From positions 1 to 38,500 of the forward strand of contig JARLIV010000022.1 of assembly GCA_031291555.1 (NCBI GenBank): 38,500 nt of DNA. Reading direction: 5' to 3'. The DNA comes from Methylovirgula sp. GTDB lineage: Bacteria; Pseudomonadota; Alphaproteobacteria; Rhizobiales; Beijerinckiaceae. Positions 9,262 through 37,594 of the stretch are shown here, one piece after another (the first letter of the stretch is position 1; each line of letters begins with the position of its first letter). A program made the translations under genes and the position numbers. A model generated the notes under the pieces. The model was not told where the DNA came from and did not search any database. It was given only the letters and a program-made list of their open reading frames with translations.

Positions 9262-9593
9262 GCGGGCCGGCGACGTCGGGGGATCATGCCGTCGTGCTCA
9301 CGGCCTGTGGCACTACCGCCGCAGGCAAGATCGCCGAAATGCTGGTCCGCGACCGGCTCGCGGCCTGCGTGCAGAAGCTGCCGGTCGAGAGCACATATCG
9401 CTGGAAGGGCGGGATCGAGACGGCGCAGGAAGTGCTTCTGCTCATCAAGATCAAAACCGCCGATTACGCTGCCGTGGAACAGGCGATCCGTGCGCTGCAC
9501 GATTACGAGATTCCGGAGATCATCGCGCTGCCAGTGGCGCAAGGCTTTGCCGGCTACCTGTCCTGGATCGACGAAGTCACGCGGCGGTCTTAA
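9258..9593 (+). CDS. cutA: divalent-cation tolerance protein CutA
   Basis: 111 residues. The body matches CutA1: AAGKIAEMLVRDRLAACVQKL near the N-terminus, then YRWKGGIETAQEVLLLIKI, and EIPEIIALPVAQGFAGYLSWI near the C-terminus. CutA is a small trimeric ferredoxin-like protein linked to copper and other divalent-metal tolerance. The GTG start at 9258 overlaps the patatin stop (GTGA), showing translational coupling. Its TAA at 9591-9593 overlaps the stop of murU on the other strand, so the two genes converge with no spacer. Confidence 0.93.
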   Translation: MSGPATSGDHAVVLTACGTTAAGKIAEMLVRDRLAACVQKLPVESTYRWKGGIETAQEVLLLIKIKTADYAAVEQAIRALHDYEIPEIIALPVAQGFAGYLSWIDEVTRRS

Positions 9594-10303
9594 AGCACCG
9601 AGCGCGCGATCAACCGTTCGGCGTCGTCGATCGCCTGCGGCGTGCCGACATGCAGCCAGATGCCGTCGAGCCGCAGGCCGTGCAGGCGCCCCGTCTCGGC
9701 GGCCTTGAGGAAATAAGGCAGCAGGCGGAACGGGCCTTCCGGCGCATCGGCGAACAGCTGGGGCTTGATGATGCCGATGCCGGTATAGACGAAGGGCGCG
9801 ACGCGTCGCTCCTCGCGCTTTGTCAGGCGGCCGAAACCGTCCATGGTGAAATCACCGGGCCAATCGACGCCGGAGCTTGCCGGCGTCGCGGCGACAAGCA
9901 GAAGCACGTCCATTTCGTCCGGGTTCCACGCTGCGGCGAGGCGGGGGAGATTGGGCTTTGCGCCCTCGACCCAGAAGGCGTCCGTGTTGCAGAGAAAGAA
10001 TGGCGTGTCGCCGAGAATGGGCAGCGCCTTCTTGATCGCGCCGCCCTGGTCGAGCAGCAGATCGCGCTCGTCGGAAATGATGATCTTCGGGGCGCTACGG
10101 TCGGCGAGATGCGCCTCGATCTGATCGGCCAGATGATGCACGTTGACGACCGCGGTGCCGACTCCAGCGAGCGCAAACCGGTCGAGCAGATGGTCGATCA
10201 TCGGCTTGCCGCCGACCTTGATGAGCGGCTTCGGGATCGTCTGCGTCAGCGGCCGCATCCGCATGCCGCGCCCCGCCGCAAAGATCATGGCTTTATCCGG
10301 CAT
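9590..10303 (-). CDS. murU: N-acetylmuramate alpha-1-phosphate uridylyltransferase-like nucleotidyltransferase
   Basis: 237-residue sugar-phosphate nucleotidyltransferase. The signature AMIFAAGRGMRMRPLT is followed by PKPLIKVGGKPMIDH. It lies 77 bp behind the TsaE-AmgK gene on the same strand. AmgK plus MurU form the known cell-wall recycling route that turns N-acetylmuramate into UDP-MurNAc without the de novo steps. The neighbour makes MurU the best name; without it, only a nucleotidyltransferase could be claimed. The start at 10303 (MPDKAMIF) is chosen over an upstream ATG. Confidence 0.88.
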   Translation of the reverse strand: MPDKAMIFAAGRGMRMRPLTQTIPKPLIKVGGKPMIDHLLDRFALAGVGTAVVNVHHLADQIEAHLADRSAPKIIISDERDLLLDQGGAIKKALPILGDTPFFLCNTDAFWVEGAKPNLPRLAAAWNPDEMDVLLLVAATPASSGVDWPGDFTMDGFGRLTKREERRVAPFVYTGIGIIKPQLFADAPEGPFRLLPYFLKAAETGRLHGLRLDGIWLHVGTPQAIDDAERLIARSVL

Positions 10304-10380
10304 CGAAGACTTCGTGGGCAAGGAGACGAACTCGCACAACCTGATTTTACGCCCGGCCGATGCGAGCAAGGTGTAACCTG

Positions 10381-11934
10381 CTACGCGCCCCGGCTGAAGA
10401 GGCGCGGCAGGTGGGTCTCATACCAGCCCTTGAGACCGGACAACAAGGGATGCGCGAGATCCTTGGCTAAATTTTCTTCTACGCGTGGCAGATGTGCCAG
10501 ATATTGTGGTTTACGGTCGCGCTTATCGAGGCGCGCAAAAATACCGAGAATTTTCGTCGCCCGCTGGGCTCCGAGCACCGCATAGGCGCGGGCAAAGCCC
10601 CCCATATCGAAACCAGCGTCCGCGATGCGGCGCAATTGCGCATAATGGCCGAGGAGCTTCAGTTCCACCTCTGGCGGCACGCTCACCCGCGCATCCTGAA
10701 GCAGCGAAACGACGTCATAGGCCGGATGACCCAGCACGCAATCCTGAAAATCGATCAGGCCGACCCGGGCGCTGCCCTGGCGCTCGCCGAGCCAGAGGAT
10801 GTTGGGCGAATGAAAGTCGCGCAGTGTCCAGGTCCGCGGTCCGGCGACGATATCGCGCAGCGTATGCCGCCACAGATTGACGAAGCTCGCCTTGGCGCCG
10901 GAGGTCAGCGAGGCTTTGGCGATATGCGGCGCATACCAATCGAGGAGCAATTCGATTTCGACCGATAGCGCGTCAAGATCATAAGCCGGAATACGATATT
11001 CACTCGATCCATCGACGGGTATACTCGTCGGCAGATTCAATTGATGCAGCCGGGCCAGAAGCGCGACGGATTCGGCATAGCGCTCAGTGACGATCTCGCC
11101 GCCGCTGACGACGCTCTCGCTGCCGAAGTCCTCAAGAACCGCGACGCCGACATCGAGATCGACGGCATAAATCTCCGGCGCCGAGAAACCTTCGGCGCGC
11201 AGGCCTTTGTCGATCGCGACAAAGGGGCGGATGTTTTCCGCAAGATGCGCCAGCGTGCCATAGGATTTGCCGAAGCGGATCGGCGGCCCGTCCGCGCGCG
11301 GCGGCGAAATCATCAGTACGGCGGTAGCGCCGTCGGGCCGGACGAGCCGTTCATAAGCGCGGGTCGAGGCATCGCCCTGCATGAACTGCCGCTCGGCATC
11401 GTCAAAGCCGGACTCGGCCAGCACGTCATGGACGGCGTGGGCGATGTCGAGCCGCGCCGCGAATGTGCCGTAGCCGGTCAGAGTCGCGATGCGGAAACCC
11501 GCGTCCTGCGCTGGGTCTAGAGCCATGGCGATATCCAGCCGGTCAGGCGGCAGGCGCTCGCCGGCGCGGTCCGGCCATTCGACAAGAACGAGCGCGCCCT
11601 CCGCCGCCTCGTCCCAGCCAAGCTCATCCAGTTCATCGGGGTGGCGGATGCGATAGAGATCGGCATGGACGATCGGGAAATCGAGCCCGTCGTAAATCTG
11701 CATCAAGGTGAAGGTCGGGCTTGGTACTTCGATATCCGCGTCGCCCGTCAGGCTGCGGATCAGCGCGCGAGCGAAGGCTGTCTTGCCGGCGCCGAGTCCG
11801 CCGCTGAGAGTCACGATATCCCCCGGCTTCAGCCAATGGGCGATCTGGACAGCGAGCGTCGCGGTCTGCGCCTCGTCGGGAAGCGCGATCCGCCATGTCG
11901 CACGAGACTTTTGCTGCGACAGGCTCGACGCCAT
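10381..11934 (-). CDS. bifunctional TsaE (tRNA t6A ATPase) / AmgK-like anomeric sugar kinase
   Basis: 517-residue fusion. Residues about 20-150 are TsaE, the P-loop ATPase of tRNA threonylcarbamoyladenosine synthesis: Walker A GGLGAGKT (45-52), then PSPTF and HADLYR. Residues about 180-517 are an aminoglycoside phosphotransferase-fold kinase: GDASTRAYER at 188-197, catalytic Asp373 in LRDFHSPNILWL, and metal-binding Asp395 in LIDFQD. The kinase matches AmgK (N-acetylmuramate/N-acetylglucosamine 1-kinase), and murU follows. The same fusion is annotated in many alphaproteobacteria, so it is normal for the clade rather than a local accident. The start at 11934 (MASSLSQQ) is chosen because the residues upstream look unlike TsaE. 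It lies 174 bp behind divL. Confidence 0.92.
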   Translation of the reverse strand: MASSLSQQKSRATWRIALPDEAQTATLAVQIAHWLKPGDIVTLSGGLGAGKTAFARALIRSLTGDADIEVPSPTFTLMQIYDGLDFPIVHADLYRIRHPDELDELGWDEAAEGALVLVEWPDRAGERLPPDRLDIAMALDPAQDAGFRIATLTGYGTFAARLDIAHAVHDVLAESGFDDAERQFMQGDASTRAYERLVRPDGATAVLMISPPRADGPPIRFGKSYGTLAHLAENIRPFVAIDKGLRAEGFSAPEIYAVDLDVGVAVLEDFGSESVVSGGEIVTERYAESVALLARLHQLNLPTSIPVDGSSEYRIPAYDLDALSVEIELLLDWYAPHIAKASLTSGAKASFVNLWRHTLRDIVAGPRTWTLRDFHSPNILWLGERQGSARVGLIDFQDCVLGHPAYDVVSLLQDARVSVPPEVELKLLGHYAQLRRIADAGFDMGGFARAYAVLGAQRATKILGIFARLDKRDRKPQYLAHLPRVEENLAKDLAHPLLSGLKGWYETHLPRLFSRGA

Positions 11935-12055
11935 CGGTACGATACTCCTGATCTCGATTGGTGCATCAACGCGAAACTCGACCGCAAATGCAACCCTGGC
12001 CGGCCGCGGTGGGCGCAATACCCCCCGCTTTGTCTATCCCGCGCCTTTTTGGCTA

Positions 12056-12108: not shown

Positions 12109-14670
12109 CTAATGCGCGGCTTGGCCGGGAAATATGCAGCTCACGGTCGTCCCACGATTGGGCGCGGACTCGATCTCGACGCGCCCGCCGTGCAATTCGA
12201 CCAGAGAGCGTACGATCGACAGGCCGAGGCCGACGCCGCGATGGTTCGAGCCGAGGCTGTCCGTCGTGAAGCGCTTGAACACGTCGTCGATCACCTCTGG
12301 CGGAATGCCGCGGCCTTGGTCGCTGACCTTGAGGATGATCTCGTCGCCGCGCCGCAGCGCCGACAGCACGACCGTCTGGCCCGGCTGCGAGAAGCCGATC
12401 GCGTTCGAGAGCAGGTTGAACAGGATTTGCCGGATGCGCTGGCCATCGGCGACGAACGTGCCGACTCCATCCGAGGCCTCGACCTTGAGACGGATCGAGG
12501 ATTCGGCGAGCCGGTCCTGCACGCCCTGCGCCGCGAGATTGATGGTTTCGCGGATGTCGACCTTCTCGGGCTTCAGCTCCAGCGCATCGGCGTCGATCGA
12601 GGCGAGGTCGAGGATATTGTCGATGATCGCCAGCAGCGCCAACGACGAACTCGTGACATAGCCGGCATATTGCTTCTGCTTTTCATTGAGCGGGCCGGTA
12701 GCGGGATCGCCCAGCAATTCGATGAAGCCGATGATATTGGTCAGCGGCGAGCGCAGCTCGTAAGAGACGTGATGGACGAAATCGTTGCGCAATCTTTCCG
12801 CGTCCACCAGCGCCTTGTTGCGCTCGGTCAGCGCCCGCTCGACGCTGACGCTCGCCGTCACGTCAATGAAGGTCAGCAGGGTTGCCCCGTCGGGCAGCGG
12901 CTGCGCCGTGCAGTCGAGCACAGTGCCGTCCTGGCACGCGATCCGGCCCTGATAGCCCGTGCGCTGATCGTCGAGCCCGGTGACGACGCTGCGGATCGCG
13001 ACGAAGACGGGATCATCCTTGGCGAAAATCGTGCAGAATGTGCTGACGCGGTCGATATGCGGTTTGTCGTCGAGTTGCGCCGGATCGAGCTTGAGAAGCT
13101 GCGCGAAGGCCGGGTTGAAGAAATTGAGCCGCCCGTCCGTGCCGAAGACGGCGACGCCTTCCTTCAGCGTATCGAGCGTCTCGCTTTGCACGCGGGTCAG
13201 CGCGTTGAAGCGCGATTCGAGATGGAAGCGCTCGGTAACGTCATCGAAGAGATAAGTGACGCCGCCCTGCGGATTGGGGTTGATGACGACGCGCAGCGTC
13301 CGCCCGTCGGGCAGATACCAGACCTGCCCGGTCGTCTCCATCGCCTGGTAGGCGGATAGGACGCTGTCTTTCCAGGCGCGGAAATCGGCCTGCTCGGGCA
13401 AAAGCCGGGCGGCGCGCAGCCGGTCGAGGATTTCGGAATCCGACGGATATTCGTCGAGGTAGGCGGGCGGAAGCGACCAGAGCTGGCGATAGGCGGAATT
13501 GTGGAAGACGAGACGTTTGCGGCGGTCGAATATGGCGACCGCGGTCGAAAGCTGGTCGAGCGTCGCGGCGTGGGCCTTCGTCTGCCGCTCCATATCGGCG
13601 CGCAGCGCTTCAAGCTGCGAGATATCGGCGGCGATCCCGGCCGCGCCCAGCGCCACTGGGACTTCGACGATATCGAGCAGGCGGCGCTGCCCGGCCGCGA
13701 CGGCTGCGGCCCGGCCGCGCCAGATGGTACCGGCCTTGCGCGCCTCGATCGCGGCATCGCGGGTCGTGCGTTCGAGCAATTCCGTTCCACGCATGAGGGC
13801 GTCGGCGGCGTCCTTCGCCTCGACGGCGCGGACATAGGCGGCATTGACCCAGGCGAGCTTTTCGTCGCGGTCGCGCAGCCAGACCGGATAGCTCGTCGAA
13901 TCAAGCAGCGCGTGAAGCGCATCGAGTTCACTGTAGGAGCGCAACAGCCGCTCGCGCAGACGCGCGGCTTCGAGCCGGTCACCGGAGACATCGCGGATGC
14001 GCATGACGGCGCGCCCGCTGACCGCGCGGCCATCGAGCTCGAGCGTCCGGCCGGCGAGGCTTTCGACGTTGAAGTGAAAGGCTTCTCCGCGTGCCCGCAA
14101 TCTTTCGACGCAGGTTTCGAGCTGCTGGGCTGAATCCGGCGGCAGCCAGGAGCCGAAGCCGAGAATGCGCCGCGCGATCGGCTGGTCGGTGACGAGGCTC
14201 AGATCGCCTTCAATCTCGGCTTCATGGCCCGGGCCGTCCCAGGCGATAATGATCTGCGGCTCGGCCGCGAGAAAGACCTGCGCGCGATCGAATTTGGCGC
14301 GCATATCGTTGAGTTCGAGCGCATACGCCGCGTCCTGCTTCTCCCATTTGCGCGATTCGCGCAGGTGCAGAAGCGCGGTGACTGCGGAGAACATGACAAG
14401 GCCGACCAGCAGCGAGAGGCCGAGAATGTCCTGATTGGCCTGCAGATGCTGGAACATGAGCGCGGAATAGCTCGGCTCGGCGAAAGCGGGCGTCGCGGCG
14501 CAGCACAGGGCGGGCGCCGTCAAAAGCCTTGATGCCGACCCAAGCCGCACGTGCCAGGCCATTTGCCAATGTTGCGCGCTTGAGCCGTCCCGCTGCCGTG
14601 CTCGTGTGCCCATCGCGACCTCGTCATGACGCCGGCGCCGCGTCGAATCGCTCATGCCCGTTCGAATCAC
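12109..14670 (-). CDS. divL: DivL-type membrane PAS sensor kinase homologue with Tyr in the H-box
   Basis: 853 residues: an N-terminal signal-like segment (about 48-65), a transmembrane helix (about 81-102), several PAS-like domains (about 250-600), then a dimerisation helix and a HATPase domain. The H-box reads HHVSYELRSPLTN: the usual phospho-accepting histidine is Tyr637 (codon at 12760-12762). This replacement is the hallmark of Caulobacter DivL, which works with DivK and CckA upstream of CtrA. The ATP-binding domain keeps NLLSNAIGFS, SDQGRGIP and GVGLGLSIV. An alternative start is Met6 (14655). It precedes tsaE-amgK and murU on the same strand. DivL function here is inferred from the family. 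Confidence 0.88.
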   Translation of the reverse strand: MIRTGMSDSTRRRRHDEVAMGTRARQRDGSSAQHWQMAWHVRLGSASRLLTAPALCCAATPAFAEPSYSALMFQHLQANQDILGLSLLVGLVMFSAVTALLHLRESRKWEKQDAAYALELNDMRAKFDRAQVFLAAEPQIIIAWDGPGHEAEIEGDLSLVTDQPIARRILGFGSWLPPDSAQQLETCVERLRARGEAFHFNVESLAGRTLELDGRAVSGRAVMRIRDVSGDRLEAARLRERLLRSYSELDALHALLDSTSYPVWLRDRDEKLAWVNAAYVRAVEAKDAADALMRGTELLERTTRDAAIEARKAGTIWRGRAAAVAAGQRRLLDIVEVPVALGAAGIAADISQLEALRADMERQTKAHAATLDQLSTAVAIFDRRKRLVFHNSAYRQLWSLPPAYLDEYPSDSEILDRLRAARLLPEQADFRAWKDSVLSAYQAMETTGQVWYLPDGRTLRVVINPNPQGGVTYLFDDVTERFHLESRFNALTRVQSETLDTLKEGVAVFGTDGRLNFFNPAFAQLLKLDPAQLDDKPHIDRVSTFCTIFAKDDPVFVAIRSVVTGLDDQRTGYQGRIACQDGTVLDCTAQPLPDGATLLTFIDVTASVSVERALTERNKALVDAERLRNDFVHHVSYELRSPLTNIIGFIELLGDPATGPLNEKQKQYAGYVTSSSLALLAIIDNILDLASIDADALELKPEKVDIRETINLAAQGVQDRLAESSIRLKVEASDGVGTFVADGQRIRQILFNLLSNAIGFSQPGQTVVLSALRRGDEIILKVSDQGRGIPPEVIDDVFKRFTTDSLGSNHRGVGLGLSIVRSLVELHGGRVEIESAPNRGTTVSCIFPGQAAH

Positions 14671-14989: not shown

Positions 14990-16396
14990 TCAATACCGAT
15001 ATTGGTCCGGCTTGAACGGGCCAGCCTGCGGCACACCGATATAATCGGCCTGTTCCGGCGTCAGCTTGGTCAAATGGGCGCCGACCTTGGCGAGGTGGAG
15101 CGCGGCGACCTTCTCATCGAGATGCTTCGGCAGGGTATAGACACCGCGTTCATATTGGCCCTGCTTGGTCCAGAGCTCCATCTGCGCCAGGGTCTGGTTG
15201 GTGAACGAGGCCGACATGACGAAGGAGGGGTGGCCCATCGCATTGCCGAGATTGACGAGCCGGCCTTCCGACAGAAGGATGATGCGCTTGCCATCGGGGA
15301 ACTCGATCTCGTCCACCTGCGGCTTGACGTTGTTCCAGCGGAAATTGCGCAAGGCCGCGACCTGGATCTCCGAGTCGAAATGGCCGATGTTGCAGACGAT
15401 GGCGCGATCCTTCATCGCCCGCATATGCTCGAGCCGGATGACATCGATATTGCCCGTGCAGGTGACGAAAATGTCGGCGCGTGGCGCCGCATCTTCCATG
15501 GTCGCGACTTCGTAGCCTTCCATTGCCGCCTGAAGCGCACAGATCGGATCGACTTCGGAGACGATGACGCGGCAGCCGGCATTGCGCAGCGAAGCGGCGG
15601 AACCCTTGCCGACATCGCCGAAGCCGGCGACCATGGCGACCTTGCCGGCCATCATCACATCGGTGCCGCGCCGAATGCCGTCGACGAGCGACTCGCGGCA
15701 GCCGTAGAGGTTGTCGAACTTCGATTTCGTCACCGCATCGTTGACGTTGATCGCCGGCCAGAGGAGCTTGCCCTCCTTGTGCATGATGTAGAGCCGATGC
15801 ACGCCCGTGGTCGTCTCTTCGCTGACGCCCTTGATGCCGGCGGCGATGCGGCCATACCAGCCGGGGTTCTCCTTCAGCCGCTTCTTGATCGCGGCGAAGA
15901 GGACTTCCTCTTCTTCATTGGTTGCCTTTTCGAGGAAGGCAGTGTCGCCCTGTTCGGCGCGCACGCCAAAATGGATGAGCAGGGTCGCGTCGCCGCCATC
16001 GTCGAGGATGAGGTTCGGGCCGCCGCCATCGCCCCATTCAAAGATGCGGTGGGTATAATCCCAGTAATCGACCAGGCTCTCGCCCTTGCGCGCGAAGACC
16101 GGGATGCCGGCGGCGGCGATGGCGGCGGCGGCATGGTCCTGCGTCGAATAGATATTGCAGGAGGCCCAGCGCAGATCCGCGCCCAGCGCCCGCAGCGTCT
16201 CGATCAGCACGGCGGTCTGCACCGTCATATGCAGCGAACCGGCGATGCGCGCGCCGGCGAGCGGCTGGGAGGGGCCATATTCCGCCCGCGTCGCCATCAG
16301 CCCCGGCATTTCCGTTTCGGCGATGTCGATCTCCTTGCGGCCCCAGGCGGCAAGCCCCAAATCGGTTATGGCGGAATCGGCGGTCGAATGGGTCAT
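14990..16396 (-). CDS. ahcY: adenosylhomocysteinase
   Basis: 468-residue SAH hydrolase that splits S-adenosylhomocysteine into adenosine and homocysteine and so keeps methylation reactions running. It needs NAD, bound by [15 protein letters not shown]. Other signatures are [20 protein letters not shown] near the N-terminus, the [17 protein letters not shown] segment, and the family ending KPDQYRY. It is complete. It is divergent from irr with about 175 bp between the starts; I see no SAH riboswitch there, though I cannot rule one out by eye. Confidence 0.98.
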
Positions 16397-17438: not shown

Positions 17439-18098
17439 TTACATGGCAGAGTGGCGGGCTGATGCGATCCGCTGCCATTGGCCGGCTCGGACCACGGCTT
17501 GGATGGCCGCTGCCCAGATGACCTCGACGCCGCGGATCGGCGCGGCATTGTGGCTTTCGAGGTCGTAAGTGCCAGCGAGGGCACCGCGCCGCACGCGTTT
17601 GAGATAGCGCCGGCCGTCGCGCGTGCGCACCGCCGCCTCGCGGCCGACGACGTTTTCGGCATCCTCGCTCTGCCGCCAGCAGATGACGACATCGCCGGAA
17701 TCATAGCGCGGCCACATGCTGTCGCCTTCGACCTCGAAGGCAATCGTATCCACCGGCGTGGCGAAGGGCACGCTGATCTCGAAGAGGCCATCCTCCGGAA
17801 TTTGCTCATATTCCGGCAGGATCTCGGCGCCGGCACCGATCCGCCCGACAACTTTCACCTCGGTGCCGGCATTGGGATCGCCGACGCCTTCGAGGAGCCA
17901 CGAAGCGCTCGTCTTCAGCACGGGGGCGAGGGCGGCGAGCGTCTCGGTCGTGATGCCGCGGCGGTCGCCGTTCTTCACCGCGCGCTTCAGATTGCGGATC
18001 GCGTCCGGCTTCTTGGCCGCGAGCGAGGCCGCATGGGCGGAAAGGCCCAGAGCCTGCAAGCGGCTCTCGACGCGAGCCAGAATGTCTTCGAGTTCCAT
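17439..18098 (-). CDS. S24-family (CI/LexA-like) phage repressor
   Basis: 219 residues: an N-terminal helix-turn-helix part (about 1-70), a linker with GRIGAGAEI (about 85-93, the usual self-cleavage region), and a C-terminal S24 peptidase fold with Ser127 in EGDSMWPRYDSGDVV and Lys167 in RRYLKRVRRG. This is a CI-like repressor expected to cleave itself when RecA is activated and so induce the prophage. The start is at 18098. It is divergent from the gcrA-like gene across a 104-bp control region that holds a promoter with an embedded inverted repeat. Confidence 0.92.
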   Translation of the reverse strand: MELEDILARVESRLQALGLSAHAASLAAKKPDAIRNLKRAVKNGDRRGITTETLAALAPVLKTSASWLLEGVGDPNAGTEVKVVGRIGAGAEILPEYEQIPEDGLFEISVPFATPVDTIAFEVEGDSMWPRYDSGDVVICWRQSEDAENVVGREAAVRTRDGRRYLKRVRRGALAGTYDLESHNAAPIRGVEVIWAAAIQAVVRAGQWQRIASARHSAM

Positions 18099-18147
18099 AA
18101 CGGTAGATTGACCGATTTCCCGCAATCTGCATTATGTATTTTTACCG

Positions 18148-35327: not shown

Positions 35328-37594
35328 CTGGCTACATCTGCGGCGTGAACCTCCTGCCTTCGACGGGGGAGTTCACCTATGACACGATCGCCTATCTCGG
35401 CCAGCGCGCGACGGAGACTTCGCTCGTTTCAATCAATCGCTATGCGAATGGCGGCCCGCTGGCGGGCATCGGCAGCAAGACGGATTATTCCGTCGCGGTC
35501 GACAATCTGCAGGCGGAAGCGCCGGGCTGCACGACCGTTGCAATTGTCGCGGCCTGGTTCGGTTCTTCGACGGATGTGACAGCCTGCAAAATCTATCCCT
35601 CGACGACCTATATCAACGGCACGTTCCAGCAGGCCGGGGGTGGCGTGGATCATTGGCGTTGCTCCGGCCTGACGCAATCGTCCTCCGGTCTCATCGCCAT
35701 TCCACAGGTGAGCGGCAGCTTCATCTATGGCGGCACACCGTCCGACCAGTCGATCGTCCGCTGTTTTCAAGACTTGAAGGCGCGGGGATTTCGCACCGTC
35801 TTCTACCCTTTCGTGCTGATGACCGATGCGAATGAATCCTGGCGCGGGGAGATCACCTATTTAGGCGACGACATTTCGAGCGCGGCGACGGCGGCGATCA
35901 ATGCCTTTTTGGGTTCGGCGGCGGCTTCGCAGTTCACGCGCGACACGACGAACCTGACCGTCGCTTATTCCGGTCCGGCGACCGACTTCACCTATCGGCG
36001 GATGATCCTGCATTACGCCAACCTCTGCGTCGTCGCGGGTGGCGTCGATCTCTTTCTGCTCGGCTCGGAATTGCGCGGCCTGGAGATAGTGCGCGGCCCC
36101 GCCTGGACGAAAGCGGGCACGACAGGCGGCGACGGGAAGGTGACATGGGATTATCCCTTCGTCGCCGGGCTGATGCAATTGGCGGACGATGTTCGCGGCA
36201 TTTTCGACGCGGCAGGTCTCACGAAAGATGCGGCGGGTCCGCACAATCTCATCACCTATTCGGCCGATTGGTCGGACTGGATGGGCGTGCAGCATGCGGG
36301 CGAGAACGGCCAGTGGCCGCATCTCGACCAGCTCTATGCACACGAGAATATCGATCTCGTCTGCTTCGATAATTATCTGCCGCTGTCGGATTGGACGACG
36401 GGTGGCGGCGGGCTCGATGCGCTCTATTGGAACGCGCCCCTGCCGACCGTGTGGCCGCCGAGCACGACAGAGATGAACGGGCTCGGGCTTTCCGGTTCGC
36501 CGACGCTCTACAGCCTCGATTATCTCAAAGCGAATATCGAGGGCGGCGAGAAATTCAACTGGTATTATAGCGACGGCACGAATGCCGGCATCGGGCTCGA
36601 TCCAAATGGCACTGACCTTCGCGTTTCGTTGCCGCAGGGAGACCGGCTCACGCAGAGCCGCAATCCCTATGCCGCCGACCAGCAATTGCTGGCGAACAAG
36701 CAATTGCGCTGGTGGTGGAACAATCCGCATCAGGCGATCTATGATGCGGGTGACGGCAATGGCTGGGTACCGCACGGTCCTAATACGGAATGGGTGCCGC
36801 AATCGAAATCCATCACCTTCGCGGAATATGGATGTCCGGCGGCGGATCGCTGCACCAACCAGCCAAATGTCTTCTATAATCCCGCTGCCGCGGCCAGCGC
36901 GACGCCCTATTGGTCGATCTGGGATCGGGGCGCCGCCGGCGGATATGTGCCGCGCCGCGACGACGAGATTCAATTGCTCGCGCTGGAAGCCATCTATGAA
37001 TATTGGGTAACGGACGGCCATAACGCGACATCGGCGGCCGGCGTCAAGATGATCGAGCCGGCCTTCATGTCCGCGTGGAATTGGGACGCGCGGCCGTTCC
37101 CGACCTATCCGCAGCGAACGGACGTCTGGGGCGACGCAGGCAATTGGCCCTCGGGTCTCTGGCTCGACGGCAAAGGTCCGTTCCTCGTGCCGCCAGTGCC
37201 GGACGCGCCGCCTGCACCTTCGCTCTCCGCCACCTTTCCTATGCTGAGCGGGCAGGGCTGGTCGATCCATTATCGCCCGGCGTTCGCGACAGATGTCGCG
37301 GCGCATGTCTCGGGGCGTGAAAGCCGCGCCGCGAAAATTTCCGTGCCCCTGTGGGAGATCGAGTTGAGCTTCGATCTCTTGCGCGCGGATATTGCAGCCG
37401 ATCTGCAGATGATCGCTGGCTTCTTCGGTTCAATGGCCGGGCAGTCTGGGGCGTTCACCTTTCCAGTGCCGCCAGAGCTCGGCCTGGGGGCCACATTCGC
37501 GTGCCGCTTCGCTGACGATGTTCAAGACCCCGAAGAATTCATGCGCCAGCTCCATACCCTGCAATCGCTCAAACTCCGGACGGTGAAGCAGTGA
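35324..37594 (+). CDS. GTA_TIM-like barrel fused to a DUF2460 tail domain
   Basis: 756 residues. The first about 600 resemble the glycoside-hydrolase-like TIM barrel of GTA tail-fibre proteins: LITYSADWSDWMG (about 307-319), HLDQLYAHENIDLVCFDNYL and LPLSDW. After a Pro-rich linker (about 624-632) a DUF2460 domain follows (LSGQGWSIHYRPAFATDVA, HVSGRESRAAK, and closing LKLRTVKQ). In RcGTA the TIM barrel and DUF2460 are in separate proteins, so this is a rearranged fusion. It likely acts at the distal tail, on cell-surface glycans by inference. Confidence 0.85.
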   Translation: MTGYICGVNLLPSTGEFTYDTIAYLGQRATETSLVSINRYANGGPLAGIGSKTDYSVAVDNLQAEAPGCTTVAIVAAWFGSSTDVTACKIYPSTTYINGTFQQAGGGVDHWRCSGLTQSSSGLIAIPQVSGSFIYGGTPSDQSIVRCFQDLKARGFRTVFYPFVLMTDANESWRGEITYLGDDISSAATAAINAFLGSAAASQFTRDTTNLTVAYSGPATDFTYRRMILHYANLCVVAGGVDLFLLGSELRGLEIVRGPAWTKAGTTGGDGKVTWDYPFVAGLMQLADDVRGIFDAAGLTKDAAGPHNLITYSADWSDWMGVQHAGENGQWPHLDQLYAHENIDLVCFDNYLPLSDWTTGGGGLDALYWNAPLPTVWPPSTTEMNGLGLSGSPTLYSLDYLKANIEGGEKFNWYYSDGTNAGIGLDPNGTDLRVSLPQGDRLTQSRNPYAADQQLLANKQLRWWWNNPHQAIYDAGDGNGWVPHGPNTEWVPQSKSITFAEYGCPAADRCTNQPNVFYNPAAAASATPYWSIWDRGAAGGYVPRRDDEIQLLALEAIYEYWVTDGHNATSAAGVKMIEPAFMSAWNWDARPFPTYPQRTDVWGDAGNWPSGLWLDGKGPFLVPPVPDAPPAPSLSATFPMLSGQGWSIHYRPAFATDVAAHVSGRESRAAKISVPLWEIELSFDLLRADIAADLQMIAGFFGSMAGQSGAFTFPVPPELGLGATFACRFADDVQDPEEFMRQLHTLQSLKLRTVKQ

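Follow-up and report, generated by a model that had tools for sequence, protein, structure and literature searches.

The gene at positions 12109..14670 on the (-) strand of the window (the whole 38,500-nucleotide stretch analysed) encodes an ordinary member of the DivL family, an already known kind of protein, in which a tyrosine stands where histidine kinases carry the phospho-histidine. We put the probability that it is an ordinary divL ortholog, with the mechanism set out below, at about 0.93. The preliminary description had treated the tyrosine as the signature of DivL, and the residue does align with the Tyr550 of Caulobacter DivL; however, genuine DivLs also carry Phe, His, Val and other residues at this site, and the comparison across relatives indicates that Tyr is not strictly diagnostic of the family.

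The open reading frame as called has 853 codons and begins with GTG, a start that is uncertain: relatives align to the window DivL only from about residue 12-85, and the true start, hence the residue numbering, may lie later than the called GTG. Since the start codon is unproved, the numbering used here is provisional. The product is an 853-residue PAS/HisKA/HATPase protein of the pseudokinase type, in which Pfam places several PAS domains ahead of the DHp/CA region, namely PAS_7 in two stretches (domain at 13222..13560, residues 371-483) and a second PAS region matching PAS_8/PAS_4 (12850..13179, residues 498-607). These are followed by the HisKA (DHp) domain (12589..12789, residues 628-694) and the HATPase_c (CA) domain (12127..12447, residues 742-848), all on the (-) strand. 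Towards the N-terminus a hydrophobic stretch, ILGLSLLVGLVMFSAVTALLHL (14365..14430, (-), about residues 81-102), recognised by inspection only, is a possible transmembrane helix.

The H box, HHVSYELRSP (12745..12774, (-), residues 633-642), lacks the phosphorylatable His and has instead, as the preliminary description had reported, Tyr637, whose codon occupies 12760-12762 (-). Because all 10 genomes examined from the same genus and 86 of the 95 own-family entries have Tyr at the acceptor position, Tyr637 is not a sequencing slip; every other kinase of the genome whose box was readable, by eye or by motif scan, has His there. The ATP-binding motifs had been described as intact, which holds for N756, for the G1 box DQGRGIP (12301..12321, (-), residues 784-790, with D784, G786 and G788), for the F box and for the glycines of the G2 box GVGLGLSIV (12211..12237, (-), residues 812-820), but not for the N box NLLSNAIGFS (12388..12417, (-), residues 752-761), where Gly759 takes the place of the Lys/Arg of ordinary kinases (NAIGFS versus NAIKFT). 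Most other kinases encoded by this genome carry Lys or Arg at this site. Gly is the commonest residue there in the 'same family' rows (71 of 85), and Lys is the commonest in other orders (83 rows). As the ATP-binding motifs are mostly kept, residual nucleotide binding by the window DivL is likely.

Several lines of evidence agree on the identity of the protein. In a phmmer search against the PDB, Caulobacter DivL (4Q20) came first with 160.8 bits, 61 bits above the next match (99.6), and with 4Q20 as query against the PF00512 kinases of the genome the window protein was in turn the best match (159.5 bits, next 122.4). A DHp/CA tree of 110 DivL rows and eight other kinases placed all DivL rows, including those of the window and of Caulobacter, on one side of a branch with SH-aLRT 96, apart from the other kinases. 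This tree omits long branches, CckA among them, because CckA had clustered with the DivLs in an earlier tree, on a very long branch (6.63). The gene also lies in a conserved locus, between ahcY (S-adenosylhomocysteine hydrolase; 14990..16396, (-)) upstream and a tsaE fused to a phosphotransferase domain (10381..12018, (-)) downstream, followed by a nucleotidyltransferase gene (9590..10369, (-)), all named by inspection, and the order ahcY-divL-tsaE-nucleotidyltransferase recurs around divL in many relatives.

These results bear on whether the protein could be a kinase of the PleC/DivJ/PdhS type whose His was lost independently and which only resembles DivL. HisKA and HATPase domains by themselves are indeed alike across these families, but the tree placement, the reciprocal best match with 4Q20 and the conserved locus all speak against such an origin, and the genome encodes a separate DivJ-like kinase (L003). 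That kinase has PAS, HisKA and HATPase domains like the window DivL and differs from it in having the His (LANVSHELRTPLNAI) and the N-box Lys and in occupying a separate branch. We therefore consider this origin extremely improbable, and retain the assignment to DivL.

The CckA/CtrA cell-cycle circuit predicted from the presence of DivL was borne out at the level of gene content, in a genome that is 88% complete. It encodes CtrA, at 421 bits against an NCBIfam cut-off of 350, ChpT (PF10090), and a CckA whose gene is truncated at a contig end and which best matches the Brucella CckA model (706 bits) and also matches the solved CckA structure 5IDM. The DivK gene adjoins that of PleD, and the complete genome of the relative G005 encodes a DivK of 99% identity; a PdhS-like kinase, recognised by inspection, is also encoded. 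The CckA match and the PdhS-like kinase point to an organism of the Rhizobiales rather than to a sphingomonad. Caulobacter query sequences served for the initial identification of CtrA and DivK, after which CtrA was confirmed by NCBIfam and DivK by conservation and gene order only.

The mechanism that we consider the best explanation is transferred from Caulobacter, in whose published model DivL has a kinase fold without catalytic activity, binds DivK~P through its DHp face, owes its phospho-specificity to the PAS domains and acts on CckA (PMC4211667, PMC7200025). According to PMC4211667, Caulobacter DivL lacks autokinase activity and can do without its CA domain, and Arg553 and Ala601 are docking residues whose substitution cuts DivK~P binding with severe effects. 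The two proteins share the PAS and DHp/CA architecture, the acceptor Tyr, and the G1 and G2 boxes (4Q20; PMC4211667), and Arg553 and Ala601 correspond to Arg640 and Ala690 of the window DivL; the CckA, ChpT, CtrA and DivK partners are encoded in both organisms. They differ at the N-box residue, which is Arg in Caulobacter DivL and Gly759 here, and at the DivK-contact position Tyr562, which is Phe649 here, as is usual among DivLs (Phe in 191 of 200 Tyr-type rows). The docking Arg is present in 199 of 200 rows of the Tyr type, in all 42 of the His type and in 8 of 9 of the Phe type.

By analogy with the Caulobacter work (PMC4211667, PMC7200025), from which we infer DivK~P sensing, absent kinase activity and control of CckA, the window DivL would be a probably membrane-anchored protein whose PAS domains and DHp/CA fold serve as a sensor rather than a kinase. 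The docking site for DivK~P would be the part of the DHp face near Arg640 and Ala690, while Tyr637 would be unable to act as a phospho-histidine and Gly759 in the N box would probably weaken ATP use further. Binding of DivK~P would alter the engagement of CckA by DivL, tipping CckA from kinase toward phosphatase and, via ChpT, leading to less CtrA~P; without DivK~P, DivL would support the kinase activity of CckA.

Across DivLs the acceptor position is predominantly, and not exclusively, Tyr. Among the sequences drawn from the class and from the relatives Tyr is present in 130 rows, with a minority having F, H, V, S, T, Q and others, and the 95 entries of the own family divide into 86 with Tyr, eight with Phe and a single one with His (L325). 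The Phe-type genes (L044, L050, L057, L290, L319, L328, L330 and L333 in the own family) are located at the conserved divL locus, and several of those in the own family have altered G1 or G2 boxes. His is concentrated elsewhere: in family f53 it is found in all 24 genomes that cover the site (L133, L146, L243-L266), and in family f99 it is found in genera g114 and g189 (L268, L269, L276-L285), with Tyr in five other genera. Best matches with His that were judged not to be DivL (L183, L184, L286, L081-L084) were excluded from the site counts; L286, from f99, was rejected as an additional and weaker match in a genome with a Tyr-bearing DivL.

Relatives with His at this site had been named in advance as evidence against the assignment of the window gene. 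They do occur, but in a tree of 73 longer DivL sequences the His rows are all nested among Tyr rows, and the window gene stays a DivL. On this tree His requires three changes, of which the starred branches force two, which suggests Tyr-to-His changes in at least two lineages and probably in three, L325 of the own family being a further single case. The His-type proteins of f53, g114 and g189 differ from the window DivL, with its Tyr637, in the acceptor, and are DivLs by the tree; those of f53 and g189 are so also by locus, since they lie in the ahcY-divL-tsaE-NTP arrangement, outside which the g114 genes are found. At the thresholds used there is one DivL per genome in these lineages. The f53 and g114 proteins have intact ATP boxes, N-box Lys included, and in g189 the ATP boxes are degraded, so that in these sequences the residue at the acceptor position and the condition of the ATP site change independently of each other.

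Of the seven f53, g114 and g189 genomes tested, six retain DivK at 72-76%; in the seventh, G348, which is an incomplete genome (73% complete), the best match is at 54%. In six genomes with an absent or degenerate DivL kinase domain no DivK was found at E 1e-25, G212 being an exception; this agrees with the tie between loss of the DivL kinase domain and loss of DivK described by Brilli et al. (PMC2877005). DivL-like proteins without any HisKA/HATPase region are L168, L176, L180 and L181; among their genomes, G107, G192 and G081 gave no DivK match at E 1e-25, and G212 (L176) gave one. In G165 DivL (L179) is apparently split into two adjacent frames, a sensor part and a 280-residue kinase part bearing the Tyr.

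Given that the protein is a DivL, the role of Tyr637 can be read in other ways. In the genetic code Tyr-to-His and Tyr-to-Phe each take one base change, and Tyr is nevertheless held in most DivLs; together with the conserved G1, F and G2 boxes and N-box Asn, this would suit an active enzyme that autophosphorylates Tyr637, a true tyrosine kinase derived from the histidine-kinase fold. We regard this as very unlikely, as the non-phosphorylatable Phe occupies the site in 8 of the 95 family entries, at the same locus, the N-box Lys is replaced by Gly, and the Caulobacter protein is described as having neither autokinase activity nor need of its CA domain (PMC4211667). Another reading, in which the protein is a DivL but Tyr637 has no function and an unused catalytic site drifts freely, draws on the occurrence of F, H, V, S, T and others and of degraded or absent kinase domains among DivLs. 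It is less easily dismissed but still improbable in our view, with Tyr retained in 130 of about 150 DivL candidates from the class and relatives and in 86 of the 95 family entries, and with growth and shape defects described for Caulobacter Y550H (PMC4211667). An inactive kinase fold that senses DivK~P remains the reading that we prefer.

The preliminary description also mentioned that CtrA controls gene transfer agents in other alphaproteobacteria, a remark that gained no support here. A phage-like cluster takes up the window from about 19.3 kb as far as the end of the contig (19339-38500), with genes for terminase, portal, DUF4403, lipase, DUF2019, capsid-like, tape-measure-like, GTA_TIM and DUF2460 proteins, the capsid-like protein sharing 64% identity with a protein of Brevundimonas phage Polewnik. 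Compared with the RcGTA-type set, GTA_TIM and DUF2460 are present, together with phage-type relatives of terminase, portal and capsid. The GTA_TIM gene (35987-37111) is the only one in the genome, and GTA_TIM is absent from all nine same-genus genomes searched. The terminase-portal part is common to most same-genus genomes compared, and the part at 19.4-26.0 kb has a collinear counterpart at 86% in G005, a complete genome without GTA_TIM; pieces at 69-81% over the whole cluster span are found in G019, from another genus. No CtrA box (TTAA-N7-TTAA, with at most one mismatch) was found in the window. Gene transfer agents can also come under indirect control, and although no support was gained for CtrA control of the cluster, its regulation may be of this kind. 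Between the divL region and the cluster lies a gene for a Peptidase_S24 (LexA/phage-repressor-like) protein (17439-18125, (-)).

DivL itself, its tyrosine, the dispensable kinase activity and the loss of the kinase domain are already published (PMC4211667, PMC2877005, PMC4426382), and the window gene is one more DivL, in a genome whose gene content confirms the components of a CckA/CtrA circuit. In PMC4211667 the Tyr is described as conserved throughout DivL homologs, with Ala in Magnetospirillum magneticum as the sole exception, whereas here Phe and His recur among true orthologs; a search of the openly accessible literature gave no account of naturally occurring DivLs of the His or Phe type. 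In our view the His revertants are the part worth following. We tentatively suggest, as a possible though rather doubtful reading, that the DivL tyrosine is reversible, with His regained in at least two and probably three lineages, two of them with full ATP motifs, and that some of these proteins may again be kinases of the CtrA pathway. Together the family offers a natural series, running from Tyr through Phe to His, the last with the ATP motifs either intact or degraded, and on to proteins with no kinase domain, which could be used to test the purpose of the tyrosine and whether a pseudokinase can be re-armed.
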